Virus record (IMG/VR): IMGVR_UViG_3300027969_000231
Location: 1 to 36,432 of that record
Length of the DNA: 36,432 nucleotides
Strand: one strand, 5' to 3'
From: a virus
This document shows positions 13,373 through 29,668 of the stretch, piece by piece. The notes below the pieces were generated by a model. The model had not been told where the DNA came from, did no database searches, and saw only the letters and a program-made list of their open reading frames with translations. The position numbers and the translations under genes are program-made. Every line of letters starts with the position of its first letter. The first letter of the stretch is position 1.

Positions 13373-13622
13373 ACCAAGACCATACAAGCACGAATACGAA
13401 ACATACGACGGCACACCCGCCGTTAAGAAGAAACGTGCGGCAAGAAACAAAGCACGCGCAATCATGGAAAAAGCAGGGCTAGTCCACAAGGGTGACGGCA
13501 AAGACGTCGACCACAAAAAGCCGTTAAGCAAGGGCGGAACTACTGTCCGAGGCAATCTCCGTGTGAAAACCGCTAGCGATAACCGCTCTTATGCCCGCAA
13601 GTCAGACCACACAATTAAATAA
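13356..13622 (+). CDS. HNH-like endonuclease, 88 aa
   Basis: Residues 45-78 contain GDGKDVDHKKPLSKGG, then RGNLRV and DNRSYAR. These are the DH, the N and the final N/R of a short HNH module of the kind found in phage-encoded nicking or terminase-associated nucleases. The N-terminal third is very basic (KKKRAARNKARAIMEK), suited to DNA binding. AAAGGAAC precedes the ATG, within the end of the gene upstream. It sits between a PD-(D/E)xK nuclease and a helicase, consistent with recombination or host DNA breakdown. Confidence 0.8.
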   Translation: MPYVNKPRPYKHEYETYDGTPAVKKKRAARNKARAIMEKAGLVHKGDGKDVDHKKPLSKGGTTVRGNLRVKTASDNRSYARKSDHTIK

Positions 13623-15163
13623 TGCAAGTTGTTGAAAACAAATACTTAGTCATACAGACTGAAGAGCCACAGAAGATTCTCTCGACTATCGCTAAGAGTG
13701 CCGAGTACACCGAGGATTCGGTGGCTGTTCATTGGGGGCTGAAGGAAGCACAGATGCTAAAGACGCTTGGTTGGGAAAGCGTGCCGTCCCCGATTAACCG
13801 AGACTATGACTGGCCCGGACTTCATAGGCCAATGAACCACCAAAAGGAAACTTCATCCTTTCTAACCCTACACCCCCGCGCTTTTTGTTTTAACGAACAA
13901 GGGACTGGCAAGACTGCATCAGCTATCTGGGCATCGGATTATCTAATAGCGCAGGGATACATCAGCCGTGTTCTGGTCATCTGCCCTGTATCCATCATGC
14001 AAGCCGCATGGCAAGCCGACCTATTTAAGTTTGCTGTTCACCGCCATGTGGATGTAGCGCACGGAGATCGCAAGAAACGCAAGGCTATCGTAGAAGGTGT
14101 AGCCGAGTACGTCGTCATTAACTACGACGGTGTGAGCATTGTTGAAGAAGAACTCAAGGCTGGTGGGTTTGATCTCATCATCATTGACGAAGCCAATGCC
14201 TACAAGAACTCTAGGACTGAGCGTTTTAAAACGTTGAGAAGAGTGATCACTCCTGATACTTGGATATGGATGATGACTGGTACACCCGCAGCTCAATCAC
14301 CATTAGATGCCTACGGCCTTGCCAAACTATGCGTACCCGCAAGAACCCCACACTTATACACGGCGTTTCGTGATGTAGTTATGTATCAGTTCTCACGGTT
14401 CAAGTGGATTCCAAAACCGCAAGCCCAAGGCATAGTGCACAACCTACTGCAACCTGCGATTCGTTTTGAGAAGAAGGACTGTATTGATCTGCCTGATGTG
14501 ACACACACTTCACGGTTTGCACCACTGACACCACAACAGTCGAAGTACTACAAAGACCTTAAGAAAGAGATGCTGATTGAAGCAGTTGGCGATGAAGTCT
14601 CTGCTGTAAATGCGGCGGCTCAGTTGAATAAACTATTACAAATCTCCTGCGGGGCTGTGTACACCGATACTAAGAATGTTATAGAGTTTGATGCGTCAAG
14701 CCGACTAAACATTTTGTTAGAAGTTATAGAGGAAGCAAGCCATAAAGTTCTAGTATTTGTGCCGTTCACACATGCACTAAATCTAGTTCAAGATTTCTTA
14801 AGAAAGAACAAAGTAACGTCAGAGATTATCAATGGCTCCGTAAGCGTGTCAAAGCGTACCGACATCTTTAAAAGGTTTCAAGAACAAGATGAACCACGAG
14901 TACTTTTGATTCAACCACAAGCGGCGGCACATGGGGTAACCCTTACTGCGGCTAACGTAATCGTATGGTACGCTCCCGTCACTTCGATTGAAACATACTT
15001 GCAAGCAAACGCACGTATTGATAGGCCGGGACAACGTAACCCTATGACAATCGTGCATCTTGAGGGTAGTCCAGTAGAAACAAAACTCTACTCAATGTTG
15101 CAAAACAAATTGGACTTCCACAACAAGATTATTGATCTGTATAAAAGTGAAATTAACTCTTGA
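13622..15163 (+). CDS. SNF2-type superfamily 2 helicase, 513 aa
   Basis: Motif I NEQGTGKT has Lys97. Motif II is IIIDEAN (Asp189, DEAN rather than DEAH). Motif III is WMMTGTPAAQSPLDAYGL. The second RecA-like half has KVLVFVPFTHALNLV (motif IV region), and motif V/VI is AANVIVWYAPV followed by YLQANARIDRPGQ. The pattern matches compact phage SNF2-like translocases without extra domains. The start overlaps the HNH stop by one base and has no strong ribosome-binding sequence. It is likely a DNA translocase in replication or recombination. It ends just before the promoter at 15160. Confidence 0.9.
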   Translation: MQVVENKYLVIQTEEPQKILSTIAKSAEYTEDSVAVHWGLKEAQMLKTLGWESVPSPINRDYDWPGLHRPMNHQKETSSFLTLHPRAFCFNEQGTGKTASAIWASDYLIAQGYISRVLVICPVSIMQAAWQADLFKFAVHRHVDVAHGDRKKRKAIVEGVAEYVVINYDGVSIVEEELKAGGFDLIIIDEANAYKNSRTERFKTLRRVITPDTWIWMMTGTPAAQSPLDAYGLAKLCVPARTPHLYTAFRDVVMYQFSRFKWIPKPQAQGIVHNLLQPAIRFEKKDCIDLPDVTHTSRFAPLTPQQSKYYKDLKKEMLIEAVGDEVSAVNAAAQLNKLLQISCGAVYTDTKNVIEFDASSRLNILLEVIEEASHKVLVFVPFTHALNLVQDFLRKNKVTSEIINGSVSVSKRTDIFKRFQEQDEPRVLLIQPQAAAHGVTLTAANVIVWYAPVTSIETYLQANARIDRPGQRNPMTIVHLEGSPVETKLYSMLQNKLDFHNKIIDLYKSEINS

Positions 15164-15187
15164 CAATGTCAACAAAAAGAGTATAAT
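15160..15187 (+). promoter_or_regulatory. Consensus sigma70 promoter for the structured RNA
   Basis: TTGACA (15160-15165) and TATAAT (15182-15187) are both exact consensus hexamers, 16 bases apart. The expected start, 7-8 bases downstream of -10, falls at 15194-15195, the first base of the RNA stem. The -35 is also the left half of the perfect palindrome TTGACA-A-TGTCAA (15160-15172), a candidate operator. Confidence 0.85.
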
Positions 15188-15194
15188 GATTTTT

Positions 15195-15283
15195 GTTGGT
15201 AACGCGTAATACGGGTTAGCGCCGTATTATTCCTGTGCACAAGGAAGACGAACACCACTGCTTTATGTGAGCGCGTTACCAAC
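15195..15283 (+). ncRNA. Structured RNA or 5' leader element, 89 nt
   Basis: The two ends form a perfect 12-bp stem (GTTGGTAACGCG with CGCGTTACCAAC). Inside are a hairpin with an 8-bp stem TAATACGG/CCGTATTA and a 7-base loop (15207-15229), and, directly abutting, a hairpin with stem TTCCT/AGGAA and loop GTGCACA (15230-15246). A 25-base stretch with a weak CAC/GTG hairpin follows. The result is a multibranched junction starting at the predicted transcription start. No terminator follows, so it could be a cis-acting leader for the gene at 15311 or a processed RNA. It has no tRNA features and no known riboswitch was recognised. Confidence 0.65.
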
Positions 15284-15310
15284 ACCTATAAAAAATAATT
15301 TGGAGTGAGT

Positions 15311-15706
15311 ATGGAATCAGATTTTTCTATTGAGAAAGTCGTTGAGGCTTACATTAAGATTCGCGACACTAAAGAAAGCATTTACGCAAAGTACAAAGCC
15401 GACACTGCCGAGTTAGAAGAGCAGATGACTACTCTAAAGCACAAGTTACTTGAGGTCTCAAAAGAGACTGGCGTGACTAGCTTTTCAACACCGCAGGGCA
15501 CTGCGTATCGAACCGTCAAAGACCGCTTCTGGACTAATGACTGGGAAAGCTTCTACAAATTTATGCAAGAGCATGAAGCAATGGGGCTACTAGAGAAACG
15601 TATTCATCAAACGAATATGAAAGAGTTCCTAGAGAACAACCCTGATGTCGAGCCTATGGGTTTGAACATTGATCGTGAATATGAAATTACTATTCGGAGG
15701 AAATAA
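15311..15706 (+). CDS. Hypothetical coiled-coil phage protein, 131 aa
   Basis: TTTGGAGTGAGT immediately precedes the ATG; the same sequence precedes the AAA+ gene. The first half (VVEAYIKIRDTKESIYAKYK, then LEEQMTTLKHKLLEV) is a coiled coil. The second half has FSTPQGTAYRTVKDRFWTND, DWESFYKFMQEHEAMGLLEK and GLNIDREYEITIRRK. This layout recalls a common phage early-gene family seen near ssDNA-binding proteins, with unknown function. It is the first gene after the structured RNA and the likely target of any control by it. Confidence 0.7.
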   Translation: MESDFSIEKVVEAYIKIRDTKESIYAKYKADTAELEEQMTTLKHKLLEVSKETGVTSFSTPQGTAYRTVKDRFWTNDWESFYKFMQEHEAMGLLEKRIHQTNMKEFLENNPDVEPMGLNIDREYEITIRRK

Positions 15707-20035: not shown

Positions 20036-23000
20036 TTACTTGATTTTCCTAGCGCCCGACAATAACGGTGCAACTTCGGGAAGTATGGCATCTGGTATAT
20101 CAACGCCAAAGTTTATCGCCGCGTCAGCCAGACCTTGATATTTCTTCTCAAAGCTATCTTCAATGGTTTTTTCTGGATCATCTATAAAGTTGGGGTGCCT
20201 AGCAGCAAACTTATAAAACTCCTTACGCGCTACGTTTTCGGCTGGACTGCCAGCCAAGCGTTCTACCCAAATGCGATCAAGCAACGCTGATTTTTTAGCG
20301 TTTAACTTGACTATTTTTTCATCTGCATTAGAAGCCGCACGCTCTCTTAAAGTTAACTTTTCTGGGCGAATACCGATCGCTGTTGATGCAATATCCCATT
20401 TAGTGAAATCTTCTTTGTTCATAATCGTTTTGCCTGAGAGACGTTTAGCCCCTTCTGTTGCAAAACGGTGTGCCTGTGCTGGTTTAGTTATAGCTGCAGG
20501 GAACGCCTTTTCGTACGCACGCTCGTAATGACCTTGTTGGACAAGGCTCCATGCTGTAGGTAGGGTATTGAGCATGTAACTTGGGAACGCACCGAGGTTG
20601 TTTGAAACAAACTCTTGTACTTCACGAGTAGCATCGGCAAAGAAACGAGCATCACGGAACAACATTTCCCCGGGGTTAACACCAATACGCTCGGTCAAAC
20701 TCCAATTTAATGCAGCCGATGGGATACCGCGTGCGGTCGCATGCGCTACTTTATATCCCATATCTCTAGCAGACTCTTCGTCCATACCAGATTGAATCGC
20801 TAGTTCAGCAACAGCGCCGCTAAAGTCACGCATCAGCATATTGAAGAACCATATTTGAAAGTCTTCCCACTCGTCGCCGTCTGGAGCAAATACCCTAGCA
20901 ATAGCCCACAGTCCTGATGCTAAGAAATACAAAGGCGTCCCCTCTGCGCCAGCCATTAAGAACGCAGTTACGTTAATGATCATAACTTTGCGGAAGGCTT
21001 CGCGGTGTATTTCCTTTTGGTATGCGTCGTACTCGTTCAGTTGCTGCTCTATGATTGCCGCATTGTTAGGAGCATTCTTATACTGGTCTTCCAAGAATGT
21101 TTTCATCTCTTTACGTTCTGCCGACGTCAATGGCGCACCAAAAGCTAACCACATATCTCGATAGATAGCACGGAGAATAGTTAAACTAACCTGTTTAAAT
21201 TGCAGCAAGAGAGCGCCGATTGGGTGCGAGAACGCACGGCCTTTAAGTTGGCGTAGGTATTCACCAAGGGAAGCGGCGGCTGCATCTCGCGCATCTTCTA
21301 TAGCCCGCTCAAATGCTTCTTCTTCGGTGTACTTTAATGGGTCGCCTGTGTTTAGATCGCGCTGAATAATGCCACGCTCATCACGTTTGTCAGCAGTTAA
21401 GTACTGCTCATACGCTAAATCGAACACCGACATTAGCGTTACTTCGCGGGTTAGGCGATCTAACTGATGGAAAGGCGCTAGAACGGCTTCTACAACTCGC
21501 TTTACTTTTCCAGTAGTGTATTGGTCAGTCGGCCCGCGTGCAAAGTCAAATGCGTCACTAATTTGCGAGATTTGTACGTCGCCATCGTCAATATACTTTT
21601 GCGCAGCACGGGCAGATGCACCCTTTAGGTAGCCACCTTCCATAATGGAAGGCCACCTAATTTGGGAGCGCATGCCTTTACCCAATGGGAGTAGCGTACG
21701 CTTTGGCATTGTCCGCATGTACTGACCAAAGTATTTAGCAATTACTTTATTTGCTTTAACAACACCATACTTACCGCCGATAGTACGTTCCGCCATGATA
21801 GGAAACGCAATCACGTTCATCAATGCGCTAGCGGGTGCAGTTAAGTTAATAGCAACTGAAAACTGGTTCACACCACCAACGAATCGAGCGCCCGGGCTTG
21901 TGTCTTCCATACCAAACATGTACTTGTAGCGCTTTTCAACTTCGTTAATGTTGTCGATAGCGGAAGTTTGGCGTTTTCCTTTTACAAACCTTCGCACATA
22001 GTCGTGCGCGTTTGTCATGTTGTTAAGAAATGGTTGGACATACTTGAACCGAGACTGCTGATAAGCGGCACGCACAGACGTTTCTGCAAACACGCGTAGC
22101 ATGTCACCACTTGCACCTTGGACAGCACGGCGGTTAATAAACATCTTGCGCATGCTTTGTTGTGGTAACAAGATATAGACTAGCTGATCCACTGCGCCTT
22201 TAATCTCTTCTTTAATTGCATCCGCCGACTTCTGAGTAGTGTGTGGTTGCCCGCCTTGAACTGTAGTTACAGTATCAGAGATAGCATCAATTAACTCTTT
22301 GACGTCCTTGAGCGCACCACCAATATCTTTGTTGTCAGTGTATAACTGAGAGATAGAGTTGCCAGCCCGCATGTCTTTAGCGGCTTGTTGCTGAGTTGCG
22401 TTACCTTTTGATAACTCTTCAAAACGTCTGTCATACGCCAAGTCACGGTTGATGTGGCTATCAAATGTATAGAACTCAGAGCGACCATTAGCAGTCACTT
22501 GGAACCAGAACTCACCGAAACGCCGTAATGGGAAGTACGGACGGTCAAAGTTTTCTTCAGCAAATTGCTTGTTGATCTTGCGTATCAAGTCTTTCTTTTC
22601 TGCTGATGTCTTACCACTCGATAACACTCGCAGTTTCATTTCACGAATAGTAGCTTTTAACAGATCGGTGTAATAGTTACGGACGGTGCGATATAACTCT
22701 TGAAACTCAGGCAAAAGTTTGTTCCATGCGTCAACAAGCTGCTGCGGTGCAACTTTATCGTCAGGTTTAGCAGTTACTGGGTCTATGTAGCCGGGGCCTA
22801 GGGGGTCGACTTCAATCCCTTGAATAGTTGCTTCCAACATGATGCGTGACATTAAGCGAGACTGCGCAGGTTTTTTCAACTGCATCTCTGCCCACTTAGT
22901 TATTATCTTATCGGCTTCGTTAACAATGCGTCCACGATAAGACGACATTTGCCCAATGATCTTGACGGCGGCACCGATGTAAGGGTTACTTTGCTGCACA

Positions 23001-26000
23001 TCTTCTTTAAGCATCCGCAGCCCAAGCATTGGAAGCTCTAGATTGCGTAGTGAATAAACACCACGGCGTCGTACAGCATTTGATAGCTTAGACAACTCAG
23101 GAATACTGGTCATCGCCGCTTTAAAAGTTTCACCTATACTTACTGCTATATCTTCAGCAGTGCGCCATTTGCTTGTAAGCGGCCCGTGTCTGTATCTAGC
23201 CTTCTTACCCTTGATTGGCGAGCTAAACCGCAACGACCCAGAAACTGCACCGGCTGGACGGACTGCAGAAAATACTTCGTTAGCTTGGATTATTGTTGCG
23301 CCTGCTACGTTGTCGGCACCAAACATCTTCATTGCAAAACGCAATAGTGAGTTATAGATTGACCCTTGGGTTGGCCCTTCTTCTGGCTCATACTTAACGC
23401 CACGTAGTTTCTTTTGGAAGTCAGCGTTAGTTAGTGCTTCAGCAACAAACTCAAATACGTTCTTGAACCCGTAGGCTTCAATATTTAATTCACTCTTTGC
23501 GTAGTTATACAGCACATATAACTGAGTCACGCCCTCACGTTGCCGTTGGTTTAAGCCCGTGGTGCTACGCAATACAAATTCAGTAGCGGCGTGCACTACT
23601 TCATGCAAGAACACACGGTTAGTTAAACCAAATTGCCCGCCAGTTCTAAGGCTGATTGCGTCGGAGCTAGGCATGTACAACCCAGAATGCACGAGGCCGG
23701 GCATGGTTTTATCAAACTCATCGCGTACTAACGCCAACTGCAACGTCAATGGAGATGTGTTGTACTCAGGCTTGTAAAGTTCTTTTAGTCCTTGATAGAC
23801 CAGTTCTAAACTCTCAGGCTTGTCGTAGTTTTTAAAGTACTTTTCATACAGCGCGGGATACGCACGGCGTACGTAGGTAAAGAGTTGGACTTGCTGCTGA
23901 CTAGACCTGCTGTCTATGTGCTGGCGTACCAATTCTCTTTCACGGTTAAAGCCGATCGTAGTAGGCAGGTCTAGTTCTGCTAACCGCGCAGCAAGTACAG
24001 AGTACAGGCCGGATGTGTTTTTCGCTACAGCACGTAGGGCACCGCTAATGTCGTTGTTATTTATTGCTTCGACTACGGAAGGGTGCAAGCCCTTTTGAAT
24101 GATCTGTCTAAATGTCTGATCGGCTTTACCTTCTACAAGCATGTCTCTGGATACAAAAGTACCATCACCACGCAAGACTGCATTTAGACCTTGGATGATT
24201 GGATCGTCGCTAGTTATGCCAAACACCGACTTGAGCATTTCAATGAACTCACGCAGCCATTGTTTTGCTTTCTGGAACTTAGTACCGACATAGTAACGAT
24301 CAGATAAAAGATTAGAGCCGTTAACCGCCCAGAACTCTGAAGGGTTAAACAACGCATACATTTCGTACGGCACATCGCCATTTTGGATAGCCTTAGATGC
24401 AAGCATCCAAGCATCCATATCTTGCTCAGTATTGGCTTTGATTACATTGTTTAAATAGAACTGAAGAGCTACGTTTTTAGTTTTAGCCGCTTCTTTTAAT
24501 TTGTTTCTAATTTGGCGCGACCACTCGTTGCGGATCAAGCGGCGTACTTGCACAGGCAACATGCGCTCAAGGTGGTGCAATATTTCGTGAACAGCCGTTT
24601 CTTCTTTAGTTGCAGCGTAGCGTCCAGTTTCTTTATCGGTCTCAAACGGAGTCGGTGCTTTGCGCGTGACTAAGCGAACTATTCTTGCAATATGGTTGTA
24701 CGACCCAGCAGTGCCTTCAGCAGCTTCTTTTTCCCTCTTTGTTTTGGGGAGCGCAACTTCAATAGCTAGGTCATCTGCAAGCGCAGGGTTCTGAATCAAG
24801 AACCAAATAGCAAAGTCGGCAGTCTCTGGGCTAATACGCCCCGCTTTCTTGGCATCTTCTAACGCCGATACAACACGACCAAACCCACGTTGCTTGCTCT
24901 TGCCATAACGATTTCTATCTGCACGCTCTTGAATGCTTTCGTTAATCTTGAGCATTGCCTCTGCGTATTGCTCTGGGGTAATCTTGCCTTCTTTGTACAG
25001 CGCATCTAGTTTGTTTACGCCCCTTCTGTTGTGAGCAATAGATTCGGCAAGGTTTGGCTCAACAGTCCCTGTTGGAAGTGCATTAGCAACGATGCTTCTA
25101 AACATGTTCCTGCGTCTATCTGCAGCCGCAGCAGATGCAAGGTTTGGAGTTGTAGTAGCAGAATCAATAGTTCTATTGACAGTCTTTGTGGGGGGCGTGA
25201 ATACATTACGCTCAAGCCCGTCGCGGTTCTCTGGTTTGCCTGATAAGAGAGACGCCAGATTTGCAGGATTGTCAGGGACGATAAAGACCGACGAGCCGTC
25301 CATCTGCTTGAGATGGTTGTCAATCAGGAACTTGTATGTTGGTTTGTTTACGTTGATGCAACCAAACGAATAACGTGAGTCTGTCTCGCTATCGCTAGCA
25401 ATAGCCTTTGCCCGCATTGAAGCATCAGATTCATTAAGCCACACCGAGTGCATCAGCGTCATGCTGTACTCGCCACTAAAAACTTTATCTAGTACAAATA
25501 CCTTACCAAAGTCATACTCACCAGCAGTTGTTGCTTCCCCAGCGCTACGTAATGCATCACGAAGACCGAATGTGAAGAACCCTGCGGGGGTAATACGGTT
25601 TTGTGGGAGGGTATTGTTACCTTTAAAGAAGTCCCCGGGGGCCAATCCTGTCAGCGTCTTGGTACGCAACAATAGAGTCCCGTTAGGCTTAAACAAATAC
25701 GTGTGGCCTTTGGGCTTATCTACGATGGTAAGGATCTTGTCGTCTGCTTGCAGCTTGTCTTTGATTGCTGGATACAGAACTCTGTAGGATTCCTTAGCAC
25801 CGTCCGACATCATCTCCGTGCCTTCTGGCAGGTCGGCAAGTACTTGTTCCGTTATGGCAATCGTGGCTGTTGGGTAGGTAACGAACTCGGCGGTGCTTAC
25901 GTTTGTCGGGTTGAGGATGATTGCTGCGGCTAGAACACCCGCATGCAATTTACCAATAATGTCGCGAATGGCTTCGGCAACGACCTCGGCACCTTCATTG

Positions 26001-29000
26001 GCGTAGCGAACAATGTCTTCTTTGACTTTGAGAATAAAGTCACGCGATCCTGCGCTTAAGCCGTAATGTTTCTCTAGGCGATCTATATCTGGTGCAGGGA
26101 GTGCCGCAAGCTGTGGTGCTACGGTTTCTTCTACGATACGGGTTTCACCTTCGATGGTGTAGGGCTCATGAGTAAGCGCAGTAAATGCGTTCTCGGCTTC
26201 TTTCTCTAGCACTTCCCATTCGGCATGCGCTTTTTCTCGTGCGTCAGATAGTTGCTTTAGTTTTACAGGAGAAGGCTGGCTACCATCAGAAGGGTCTTCT
26301 TCTTCCGACAACGCTTCATCAGCAAGCGATAGAACTTCCCACGCCTTCTTTGCTTTGGCAGTAGCAGAATCGTAGAGCGCTTGTAAGTCAGGCGATGCTT
26401 GGTCAGGTGGCGGCAGTGCAGGTACTTGCTGTACGGTTGCAGGTGGAGTTATAACTACAAGGTCAGTAACTGGAGGGGGCGTAACAGATCTGCTGTATAT
26501 GGTTTCTTTTTCTGCATCACGACGCGCAGTCTCCCGACGCTTTAATTCTTTAACGGCTTCTTCTTTGGTATCGCCAAGATAGGCCATGTCGGTTGGATGA
26601 AACTTATTAGCGTCATGCCATCCGGGAAGCCCCATTGATTCCGTAGTATTGAGACGTACGATTTGGTACGCAGCACCATTAGTGAAGGTTAAGTTTGTAA
26701 CCGTATTGCCGTATGGATCTTTGGCTCTTGTTGCGCTAACAAGATCAATCGGCGTATCTGCAGTTATCTCTGTGTCATCACTTATCTCTGGAGGTATATC
26801 TATAGTCTCTGGCTCATCTGTGCCAAACGACTCCCCGAATGCAGATTCAAATACCTCTGCAGTCTCTTCATATTTTGGTGTTTCTTTCTTAGCAATTTCG
26901 GTTTCTAATCTTGAAACTTGTCCCCACAATTCGTTTATCTGTCGGGTAAGCGTCGCCCACTCTCTACCTTTTTTGCTATCAGGTTTAGGTTCCTTGCCTG
27001 TGGGCGTAAGCAATTTATTGCGTTGACCCTTTAGTTTTGCAATTTCTTGCTCAAGTTCAGCGACAGTTTTTGGCTCTTGTCTTTCTAACGCACGCACCTG
27101 CATTCCTGCAGCTTTTGCTTTCTTTGCATCTTCAAGGTTAGTAATAAGTCTAGGGTTAGACGGTTTGTCATACCTACTAGTACTTGGCACAATAGCGTAG
27201 TAGTCGTAGCCCGGCCATAAATCACCCGTACTTGGGTCTATATCATCTTCATCTTCTATATCAAAATAAATACCTTCATCGTCTATTTTTTCGGCTATTT
27301 CTTGTTCGTTTTCAACAGGTGCAAGACCACTACTATCTGCAATATATTTCTTCTCAGCCTTAGCTATATTTTTAAGCGCTTGCGTACGCTTGTCTTTTAA
27401 CGCATCAACTTCTTGTTCTGCAGCTTCAATCTTGTCTTGTAGTGCTTCACGTTTAGAAATAGGTAATGTAGATAAGCCTTCTGATAGTTCATCTTCAAGA
27501 GCACCGAGTCTTTCTTCGGCAGCATTGAGTTCATCTTGTACTTGTTGGCGTTGCTGTTTAAAGTTAGGTGCAGTAGTTTCAGCTTTGGTCTCTTTAGCAG
27601 GTGCAGGTTGTGGCTGTGTTTTTGTTACCTGCGGTAGCTCTAATCCTTGGATATCGTCAAGCGATAGCCCGTGCTTTTCTTGGCCTTCTTTTATGGAGGC
27701 TAGATAGGCTTCAAACTCGGTAATCTCATCTTCTGTGTAGCCTCTTAGTCTGGAGAATTTTTTCCAGTCACCACTGTCGTAGGCAGCTCTTTCCTCGGGT
27801 GTCCAATCTTTGGGATTGCTGTCCTTCTCTTTGGCTGCTACTTTGTTAGAGAGCTCAATGTGTTTTGCTTCCCACTCTTTAACTGATTGGGTAGGTAGCG
27901 GAGCCCCATCAAAATCGGTAGGTGTTCCGTCTGCGGGGGGTGCAAAAATATCAGGAGACTCTGGAACCCCAGATTCATCTAAAGGAACAAACTCGTGCGT
28001 GGCTTGAATTGCTGCGCGTTCATCGGCGGCTTCCTGAGCAACAAGTTTGGCGTCGGCGCTTTCTGCTTTAGTATCCTCGGCGTCTATCTGATCTTGGTTG
28101 TACTTATCTAAGTCGGCAATCAAGTCGTCTTCAGATTTTGTTTCCTTACCTTTTTCTTTGCGTAAGAATCCTTTTGACTTGGCTAAGTCTTCCGCTGACA
28201 TCGGACGCTGGTCAACGATGCTTTGGGCAAACTTAGCTTTCTGTTCTTCTACAATTTCACCAGTGCGCTGTAGTGCTTTAGAGATTACTGCGTGCCCGCC
28301 ACCCATACCAGCACCAGCCATTAAACCTTGCGCTGCGGCTTCTTCAACACCTTCGCTCCAAGGGCGACCTGTAGCAAGATTACTAAAAATCTTTTCTTGT
28401 GCCGACTGAGGCATCTCCTCAAGCACGCCTTCTTTAAGTAACTCGCCCGCTACAAACTTAGCAAAAGATTTGTTGGTGTCACCAATGCCAGCACCTGTAT
28501 TTTTAAACCCAGCAGCGCGAGCGGCGATTGCGGTGTCAACGTCACCAATACCTAATCTAGAACCTAGCTTACCAGCACCAACCCCGATAAGCCCAGTGCC
28601 AACCCCAGCACCTAGAGCGGGGAGAACATAGTCTTCCCAATCCACACCTTGTGCGCGGGCTTCGTCGGCAATACTACCTGCGGTCAACGCGCCTTCAGCG
28701 GCATGACTTGTAATCCTAGCTACTCTATTTACTTTGTTTTTAATAAATGCTTCAGCGGCTTCGCCTGTAAGTTTTAACGTCGCCGCTTCTTTAGCGGCTT
28801 TAGTAACCCACATACGAGTAACGCCACCAGCAGCAACGCCGCCAGTAATCATGCTTGGAATTGACCCCAAAATGTTGTCAACCAACGCAAGTGGGTTTAG
28901 CCCCAGCGCTTTTACTGTATTGAAGAACCCTTTAGCTTCTTCGACGTTACCTAATTCTTTTTGTAGTTTGGCAGATTGAAACCCTGTTAAGAATTTATTT

Positions 29001-29668
29001 GAATCTTCAAAGTTAAAACCAAATTGTTGGTTTAACCTATCCATCATCTTCCCCCATTGCCCAATCTGCAACGGGTTAATATTTTTATCTCCGGGAATCC
29101 ATCCAGTTGCTAGTTCGCCAAGACCTACTAAACCTTGCACCGCATTCATACCGCCTTTACCAACAAGACCGATTGCTGCATCTTTATAGAAATCAACGGC
29201 CTTGCCAAACGCACCTTGATTTTGTTCTTGCTCTTCTTGCTGGTCTAATTTAGCTCTGCGCTCAGCAGCCAACTCTGCTGCTTTTTGGGATAGTCTGCCT
29301 TTGCGTGCTTCACCACGCATGATTTGTTGGTCAATAGCTTCAAGCTGACGACCGGGGGTAAACATAACCGACTCAGGACTACCGCTCTGGCGCATAGTCT
29401 CCAAGTTCTTTTGGTAGTCAACGGTGGGCGGCTCCATCTTGACGCCGCGCTCAAATATAGATTTGCCTTTAGGAGCAGTGCGAGTAGGCATCTCCTCGGC
29501 TTCAGCCATGCTAACGCCAGACGTCCCCACGCTCGTAGGAACGATCATTCTTTCTTTTATTGGCGGCTTTGCGTTAGCTAACGGGACAAACGTAAACTCG
29601 CCACCTTCTCCTTGGCCTTTTGCCTCTTCGGGTTCGGCCTTGGAGAGAGGAACGAATTCATATGTCAT
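20036..29668 (-). CDS. Giant multidomain virion-type protein, 3,210 aa
   Basis: The N-terminus has two FVPL tags (residues 5-8, 27-30) and a third at 560-563. A Gly/Ala-rich hydrophobic region (about 165-480) contains EEMPQSAQEKIFSNLATGRP, a phrase typical of large phage polyvalent or internal virion proteins. A coiled coil spans about 700-760. Residues about 1308-1450 form an L,D-transpeptidase-like domain with His1407 (MHSVWL) and catalytic-type Cys1437 (YSFGCIN). Two zinc-peptidase-like motifs follow: HEILHH at 1694 and HEVVHAATE at 2022, the second followed by FEFVAEALTN. The C-terminal third has further hydrophobic stretches. It is probably ejected with or before the DNA to breach the cell wall and act on host targets. 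It overlaps the 850-aa gene by four bases (ATGA). Confidence 0.85.
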   Translation of the reverse strand: MTYEFVPLSKAEPEEAKGQGEGGEFTFVPLANAKPPIKERMIVPTSVGTSGVSMAEAEEMPTRTAPKGKSIFERGVKMEPPTVDYQKNLETMRQSGSPESVMFTPGRQLEAIDQQIMRGEARKGRLSQKAAELAAERRAKLDQQEEQEQNQGAFGKAVDFYKDAAIGLVGKGGMNAVQGLVGLGELATGWIPGDKNINPLQIGQWGKMMDRLNQQFGFNFEDSNKFLTGFQSAKLQKELGNVEEAKGFFNTVKALGLNPLALVDNILGSIPSMITGGVAAGGVTRMWVTKAAKEAATLKLTGEAAEAFIKNKVNRVARITSHAAEGALTAGSIADEARAQGVDWEDYVLPALGAGVGTGLIGVGAGKLGSRLGIGDVDTAIAARAAGFKNTGAGIGDTNKSFAKFVAGELLKEGVLEEMPQSAQEKIFSNLATGRPWSEGVEEAAAQGLMAGAGMGGGHAVISKALQRTGEIVEEQKAKFAQSIVDQRPMSAEDLAKSKGFLRKEKGKETKSEDDLIADLDKYNQDQIDAEDTKAESADAKLVAQEAADERAAIQATHEFVPLDESGVPESPDIFAPPADGTPTDFDGAPLPTQSVKEWEAKHIELSNKVAAKEKDSNPKDWTPEERAAYDSGDWKKFSRLRGYTEDEITEFEAYLASIKEGQEKHGLSLDDIQGLELPQVTKTQPQPAPAKETKAETTAPNFKQQRQQVQDELNAAEERLGALEDELSEGLSTLPISKREALQDKIEAAEQEVDALKDKRTQALKNIAKAEKKYIADSSGLAPVENEQEIAEKIDDEGIYFDIEDEDDIDPSTGDLWPGYDYYAIVPSTSRYDKPSNPRLITNLEDAKKAKAAGMQVRALERQEPKTVAELEQEIAKLKGQRNKLLTPTGKEPKPDSKKGREWATLTRQINELWGQVSRLETEIAKKETPKYEETAEVFESAFGESFGTDEPETIDIPPEISDDTEITADTPIDLVSATRAKDPYGNTVTNLTFTNGAAYQIVRLNTTESMGLPGWHDANKFHPTDMAYLGDTKEEAVKELKRRETARRDAEKETIYSRSVTPPPVTDLVVITPPATVQQVPALPPPDQASPDLQALYDSATAKAKKAWEVLSLADEALSEEEDPSDGSQPSPVKLKQLSDAREKAHAEWEVLEKEAENAFTALTHEPYTIEGETRIVEETVAPQLAALPAPDIDRLEKHYGLSAGSRDFILKVKEDIVRYANEGAEVVAEAIRDIIGKLHAGVLAAAIILNPTNVSTAEFVTYPTATIAITEQVLADLPEGTEMMSDGAKESYRVLYPAIKDKLQADDKILTIVDKPKGHTYLFKPNGTLLLRTKTLTGLAPGDFFKGNNTLPQNRITPAGFFTFGLRDALRSAGEATTAGEYDFGKVFVLDKVFSGEYSMTLMHSVWLNESDASMRAKAIASDSETDSRYSFGCINVNKPTYKFLIDNHLKQMDGSSVFIVPDNPANLASLLSGKPENRDGLERNVFTPPTKTVNRTIDSATTTPNLASAAAADRRRNMFRSIVANALPTGTVEPNLAESIAHNRRGVNKLDALYKEGKITPEQYAEAMLKINESIQERADRNRYGKSKQRGFGRVVSALEDAKKAGRISPETADFAIWFLIQNPALADDLAIEVALPKTKREKEAAEGTAGSYNHIARIVRLVTRKAPTPFETDKETGRYAATKEETAVHEILHHLERMLPVQVRRLIRNEWSRQIRNKLKEAAKTKNVALQFYLNNVIKANTEQDMDAWMLASKAIQNGDVPYEMYALFNPSEFWAVNGSNLLSDRYYVGTKFQKAKQWLREFIEMLKSVFGITSDDPIIQGLNAVLRGDGTFVSRDMLVEGKADQTFRQIIQKGLHPSVVEAINNNDISGALRAVAKNTSGLYSVLAARLAELDLPTTIGFNRERELVRQHIDSRSSQQQVQLFTYVRRAYPALYEKYFKNYDKPESLELVYQGLKELYKPEYNTSPLTLQLALVRDEFDKTMPGLVHSGLYMPSSDAISLRTGGQFGLTNRVFLHEVVHAATEFVLRSTTGLNQRQREGVTQLYVLYNYAKSELNIEAYGFKNVFEFVAEALTNADFQKKLRGVKYEPEEGPTQGSIYNSLLRFAMKMFGADNVAGATIIQANEVFSAVRPAGAVSGSLRFSSPIKGKKARYRHGPLTSKWRTAEDIAVSIGETFKAAMTSIPELSKLSNAVRRRGVYSLRNLELPMLGLRMLKEDVQQSNPYIGAAVKIIGQMSSYRGRIVNEADKIITKWAEMQLKKPAQSRLMSRIMLEATIQGIEVDPLGPGYIDPVTAKPDDKVAPQQLVDAWNKLLPEFQELYRTVRNYYTDLLKATIREMKLRVLSSGKTSAEKKDLIRKINKQFAEENFDRPYFPLRRFGEFWFQVTANGRSEFYTFDSHINRDLAYDRRFEELSKGNATQQQAAKDMRAGNSISQLYTDNKDIGGALKDVKELIDAISDTVTTVQGGQPHTTQKSADAIKEEIKGAVDQLVYILLPQQSMRKMFINRRAVQGASGDMLRVFAETSVRAAYQQSRFKYVQPFLNNMTNAHDYVRRFVKGKRQTSAIDNINEVEKRYKYMFGMEDTSPGARFVGGVNQFSVAINLTAPASALMNVIAFPIMAERTIGGKYGVVKANKVIAKYFGQYMRTMPKRTLLPLGKGMRSQIRWPSIMEGGYLKGASARAAQKYIDDGDVQISQISDAFDFARGPTDQYTTGKVKRVVEAVLAPFHQLDRLTREVTLMSVFDLAYEQYLTADKRDERGIIQRDLNTGDPLKYTEEEAFERAIEDARDAAAASLGEYLRQLKGRAFSHPIGALLLQFKQVSLTILRAIYRDMWLAFGAPLTSAERKEMKTFLEDQYKNAPNNAAIIEQQLNEYDAYQKEIHREAFRKVMIINVTAFLMAGAEGTPLYFLASGLWAIARVFAPDGDEWEDFQIWFFNMLMRDFSGAVAELAIQSGMDEESARDMGYKVAHATARGIPSAALNWSLTERIGVNPGEMLFRDARFFADATREVQEFVSNNLGAFPSYMLNTLPTAWSLVQQGHYERAYEKAFPAAITKPAQAHRFATEGAKRLSGKTIMNKEDFTKWDIASTAIGIRPEKLTLRERAASNADEKIVKLNAKKSALLDRIWVERLAGSPAENVARKEFYKFAARHPNFIDDPEKTIEDSFEKKYQGLADAAINFGVDIPDAILPEVAPLLSGARKIK

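Follow-up and report, generated by a model that had tools for sequence, protein, structure and literature searches.

Locus and promoter

The window (the whole stretch of DNA analysed here) is an IMG/VR virus record of 36,432 bases. A SNF2-type helicase gene and a gene for a 131-aa protein are separated in it by a gap of 147 nt, which holds a promoter and a structured RNA module (Table 1). The two promoter hexamers match the consensus at 12 of 12 positions; this is the sole perfect TTGACA-16-TATAAT pair in the 36 kb (0.01 expected from shuffles) and the sole 12/12 site within 12.8-20.1 kb. The initial annotation, which had described both hexamers at 15160-15187 as exact and 16 nt apart and so strong a promoter as rare in the window, is borne out. 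Seven nucleotides lie between TATAAT and the helix P1 of the module.

For the downstream gene, the ATG at 15311 preceded by GGAG is the likelier start, rather than the GTG at 15305 chosen by the ORF caller. Its product yielded weak matches to DUF7307 and to Mu Gam/Gp157-like proteins, all below cut-off; its homologue in the Xanthomonas phage Xp15 (NC_007024), gp41, carries the annotation 'minor head protein'. An ORF of 3210 aa on the minus strand (20036-29668) occupies about a quarter of the window.

Table 1. Features of the promoter and RNA module (window positions)
Feature	Position	Strand	Remarks
SNF2-type helicase gene	13622-15163	+	Upstream; syntenic partner
-35 hexamer TTGACA	15160-15165	+	Overlaps the helicase stop codon
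-10 hexamer TATAAT	15182-15187	+	16-nt spacer to TTGACA
Expected transcription start	15194-15195	+	Predicted from the -10 distance and the family-wide -10-to-P1 spacing; coincides with the first base of P1
Whole structured RNA module	15195-15284	+	Fold; covariance-model (R1) match 15199-15280, 68.9 bits, E 9e-19, the window copy (L001) being one of the 61 sequences behind the model
P1, 5' strand	15195-15207	+	Pairs with 15271-15283; fold and covariation
P2 hairpin, 7 bp	15208-15228	+	15208-15214/15222-15228; conserved loop GUUAGCG, 15215-15221
P3 hairpin, 5 bp	15230-15246	+	15230-15234/15242-15246; variable part
P4 hairpin CAC-UGCUUUAU-GUG	15256-15269	+	15256-15258/15267-15269; stem covaries family-wide
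P1, 3' strand	15271-15283	+	Fold and covariation
Shine-Dalgarno GGAG	15302-15305	+	19 nt past P1
Gene for 131-aa protein	15311-15706	+	Downstream, from ATG; homologue of Xp15 gp41

Fold of the element

P1 encloses three hairpins, P2, P3 and P4. The initial annotation had described an 89-nt element with a 12-bp stem around an 8-bp and a 5-bp hairpin without spacer. Its enclosing stem, the 5-bp P3 and the beginning at 15195 stand, whereas P1 has 13 bp, P2 has 7 bp, one base separates P2 from P3 and the element spans about 90 nt; P4, which together with the P2 loop forms the most conserved part, had been missed. The 90 nt fold with -36.9 kcal/mol (z -5.0), and none of 200 shuffled sequences was equally stable; folded with its flanks the element reaches -37.5 kcal/mol (z -3.7). 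The start of transcription is predicted on the first base of the stem, as had been annotated, and the -10-to-P1 distance suggests that this recurs family-wide. By prediction from that distance and the fold, the first transcribed bases are thus paired, as in 5'-terminal stabilising stem-loops.

RNA family and covariation

The window element is a member of a real RNA family. Its layout consists of a closing P1, a P2 with the loop GUUAGCG, a variable middle and a short P4 with the loop UGCUUNAU; the P2 loop and the P4 hairpin CAC-UGCUUNAU-GUG are shared by more than 100 phage contigs of IMG/VR. IMG/VR was scanned for two conserved strings from the module, first singly and then jointly (at least 119 stretches per scan), and a structural finder recovered at least 178 distinct copies, at least 94 of which remained after filtering and thinning at 80% identity. 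Compensatory changes keep P1, P2 and P4 in 94 distinct copies among the matches listed. In an alignment of 61 diverse sequences, 84% of cells were paired (65% shuffled, at most 43% slid) and the covariation score was 0.485 (0.155 shuffled, at most 0.175 slid), the controls being slides and shuffles, the latter ignoring relatedness, rather than R-scape. Changes on both sides occurred in 15 of the 18 pairs, spread over P1, P2 and P4; the P4 stem, for example, is CGC/GCG, CCC/GGG, CUC/GAG or UGC/GCA in different members. Among 18 close relatives 97.8% of cells were paired and 14 pairs covaried, including P3, which covaries in a subgroup with the loop core UGUGCA.

The window copy carries the features that define the covariance model R1, namely P1, the P2 loop NUUAGCN and the P4 loop UGCUUNAU, all of them covarying, and R1 found no second copy in the window. 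It had no match in four loci with only a chance copy of a 15-mer (L110, L138, L153, L174); a search of the whole L138 record yielded one weak match elsewhere (E 3e-4). G-U pairs in the helices far outnumber A-C (45 vs 3 in the structure-blind alignment A2, 148 vs 19 in the model-fitted alignment A3), a relation that is reversed on the complementary strand, so selection acts on the RNA of the + strand.

The initial annotation had proposed a new structured RNA, to be refuted if homologues showed no covariation. The covariation proved very strong, the +1 position is recurrent, and no Rfam 15 family matched the element at the gathering score or under relaxed settings (best E about 6). The absence of a tRNA likewise agrees with ARAGORN, which found neither tRNA nor tmRNA. 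The family is new, being absent from Rfam 15 and from the open papers searched (subscription literature lay outside that search). An RNA with near-invariant loops in more than 100 phage contigs and without an entry in Rfam 15 marks a sizeable gap in phage RNA biology.

Occurrence in bacteria and isolate phages

When 84,980 bacterial and archaeal species were scanned for the pattern, nine matches emerged. Five were Burkholderiales or beta-proteobacterial records, others came from one contig common to Vreelandella and two MAGs, and one, in Staphylococcus (L298), was dropped as an apparent chance match that the structural finder did not recover. The shared stretch is present in records assigned to Vreelandella, an Aeriscardovia MAG and a Clostridia MAG (L299, L297 and L300), the two MAGs probably being contaminated; the L299 copy is flanked by terminase-like and portal-like genes. 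With model R1, matches came from 2 of 399 genomes in Burkholderiales and 1 of 369 in Gammaproteobacteria, the genome on which each search was centred being counted. One of the few bacterial copies is chromosomal (L302:3263-3353, Curvibacter sp. CHRR-16) and lies 67 nt ahead of an ORF of 781 aa, which is divergent from a gyrA-like gene. The module is chiefly a phage RNA, and the few bacterial cases point to Burkholderiales as the main hosts. BLAST of the element against named phages returned only chance matches (15-base motifs). Five syntenic isolate records, found by protein and searched whole with the model, gave one weak match (a Rhizobium phage, 16 bits, E 0.012); the module is absent from the helicase/131-aa locus of Rollin, Effie, HHU4 and a Rhizobium phage.

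Genomic context of the copies

Among the matches listed, 40 of 114 non-redundant copies have a -10-like hexamer whose end lies 5-7 nt ahead of P1, compared with about one copy per other offset, so that P1 tends to begin at +1; about 60% of the copies have no -10 at this spacing. A Shine-Dalgarno sequence with ATG follows 12-35 nt past P1 in about 70 of 178 copies, and the proteins encoded within 120 nt downstream fall into 19 unrelated clusters (both among the matches listed), including glutaredoxin, acyl carrier protein, LexA-like and YdaS-like HTH proteins and Gam-like proteins. Many copies lie inside operons or noncoding arrays, and the whole phage records checked contain one or two copies each.

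A tRNA starts 4-10 nt downstream on the same strand in L108:2098-2175, L137:4484-4558, L143:4296-4370 and L330:3212-3298. A general association with tRNAs was rejected, since only 5 of 165 loci among the matches listed contain one.

Evolution at the helicase promoter

With the helicase gene as query, 80 related loci were collected and their leaders read. The same promoter is followed in relatives by the module, by a plain hairpin or by nothing. In the helicase tree the module occupies the same place in deep clades, with helicase identity down to 53%, and because it is kept there between the homologous helicase and 131-aa genes, the proposal of a leader for the gene at 15311, among those of the initial annotation, fits best here. 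Within the window's own clade the module alternates with plain hairpins at helicase identities of 93-99%, and L007-L009, L012, L014-L016 and L023 have only a simple hairpin at the expected +1. All replacement hairpins begin at the same distance from the -10, and most keep the outer GUUGG of P1. The clade L025-L050, except L033, has no leader structure. Xp15 shares the gene order of the window; its syntenic leader (L347:4973-5055) is an unrelated, perfect helix of 16 bp that begins at the expected +1 (z -4.2) and offers a naturally occurring comparison where the function of a 5' helix is concerned. In L051:3057-3245, as in L052 and L054, the leader behind the same promoter is longer (about 190 nt) and unrelated; it was dropped as a structured element because its fold was no better than shuffles (z 0.0). 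The most persistent feature at the helicase locus is the 5'-terminal helix; across the family it is the loop pair. Natural exchanges of alleles at one promoter (module, plain hairpin, nothing) would allow the role of the 5' helix to be separated from that of the loops.

Possible functions

In the window and in many relatives, the position of the module is such that it would make up the 5' end of the downstream gene's mRNA. The preferred explanation, to which we assign a probability of about 0.45 (any single mechanism stays below one half), is a 5'-terminal protective RNA domain to which the conserved loops would add a specific contact. P1 would pair the first transcribed bases and the module fold compactly, perhaps with the AGC of loop 2 paired with the GCU of loop 4; both triplets are invariant and the pairing is possible. 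The sealed 5' end would exclude enzymes that need a single-stranded 5' end, such as RppH and RNase E, and the operon transcript would be stabilised with its ribosome site left free, while the loops may contact a protein, the ribosome, the polymerase or a tertiary core. This explanation was chosen because the effect of a 5'-terminal helix has a precedent: since RppH and RNase E require single-stranded 5' ends, mRNA is stabilised by 5' secondary structure (PMC3997798). The persistence of a sealed 5' end at the locus, as plain hairpins or as the Xp15 helix, favours protection. Simple protection needs no invariant loops, so the mechanism is incomplete, and the near-invariant loops demand a specific partner; the clade without leader structure indicates that the leader role is dispensable, and a 5'-end role is less obvious for copies inside operons or noncoding arrays. 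The module resembles the stabilising stem-loops of E. coli ompA and papA in that its helix starts at the very beginning of the transcript and stops short of the ribosome site, and a plain hairpin can replace it at the helicase locus. It differs from them, where a helix alone suffices, by two near-invariant loops and three hairpins in a closed junction. If the loops do contact polymerase or a nuclease, the module would represent a general phage tool for transcript control.

HK022 put RNA suppresses terminators via the beta' zinc-binding domain. The most interesting and best-argued alternative to protection is that the module acts likewise, its nascent RNA binding the elongating polymerase so that pauses and terminators, Rho-dependent or intrinsic, would be ignored; by this analogy antitermination here is hypothetical and rather unlikely. 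The two kinds of element share a length of 70-90 nt, a position at or near +1 of a phage promoter, a supposed action in cis and the absence of a known dedicated protein. PutL lies directly after its promoter and pairs from the third base, and putR lies further down (PMC9378689), a distribution similar to that of the module. One or two copies per genome (records checked) before many unrelated genes are as expected of an operon-level element, copies precede untranslated RNA that would be exposed to Rho (the four tRNA loci above and noncoding arrays), and the conserved loops call for a specific partner. However, put consists of two stem-loops in a V rather than an enclosed junction, its sequence is different, R1 has no match in HK022 (NC_002166), plain hairpins stand in for the module in near-identical phages, and no terminator is demonstrated as overcome in the window operon. 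More broadly, the module might act in cis as a phage RNA whose paired loops bind the host's RNA polymerase, or some other host machine, and reprogramme it for all RNA made downstream. Exchanged as a cassette between promoters, operons, tRNA genes and noncoding arrays in uncultured phages, it would form a second, unrelated put-like class; this too is a conjecture with the odds against it.

A regulatory leader, with the P2/P4 core as the binding site for a metabolite, a phage protein or the ribosome and a switch in downstream translation or termination as the outcome, is similarly doubtful. Riboswitches and operators typically show near-invariant loops on a covarying scaffold and a fixed position, here 12-35 nt ahead of start codons, and L301 has a terminator-like hairpin directly after P1; leaders of the purine-class kissing-loop riboswitches also have a closing P1 and two hairpins with conserved loops that might pair. 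Against it, many copies have no gene after them, pairing between the module and the window ribosome site is not predicted, and the module, unlike the purine class, has no Rfam match or visible switching partner; a metabolite riboswitch was set aside because no common pathway links the downstream genes. A reading in which the module is a stable small RNA of its own, or one domain within a larger noncoding RNA, and the leader serves as its gene would suit copies in gene-free noncoding units (L263, L292 and similar loci) and the T-run after P1 in 9 of 130 copies among the matches listed. It is improbable, as in the window no terminator follows directly and the ribosome site and ATG come within 30 nt of P1, and elsewhere many unrelated proteins follow at the same spacing. 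A DNA element (a replication or packaging hairpin) or an insertion element would account for the long perfect inverted repeat and for the presence or absence of the module among near-identical phages, but the strand asymmetry largely refutes it and copies are co-oriented with the promoter or gene where present. Its chance is very slight; a DNA hairpin was rejected on the G-U excess, and the packaging- or replication-linked RNA of the initial annotation found no support.

Module B and noncoding loci

A second conserved arm, CAGTCCCCAGCCGTGTTGG ('module B'), forms the left flank in 36 of 130 copies among the matches listed, in many cases within noncoding arrays (L263 and L219, for example). These loci (L263:6293-6970, L219:2950-3700) are several hundred nucleotides of noncoding sequence between phage genes; L263 has the order promoter, module A, module B (...AUGAGGAUUGA...CAGUCCUCAUUCUUGUUGG), module A and further structured-looking RNA. 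They may be large phage RNAs assembled from modules. An Rfam search of the long noncoding loci found no match except tRNA. Location in long noncoding loci recalls GOLLD and ROOL, structured noncoding RNAs that are partly phage- or lake-derived, but the module measures only 90 nt and can also occur as a leader by itself. Habitat and host group recall Polynucleobacter-1 (RF01718; the fresh-water Burkholderiales motif), which unlike the module has an Rfam accession and was not matched in the Rfam searches.

In L158, L172, L173, L189, L199, L211, L219, L227, L272, L310, L322 and others, a terminator-like hairpin arm with T-run (AAGUGGC-UUUUUUGUUUUU) directly precedes module A with no evident promoter between them, so that module A would be made only by read-through. 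In L033:5550-5815 module B lies between promoter and module A, and GUUGGUGU could pair with an upstream or a downstream CACCAAC, a possible alternative pairing.
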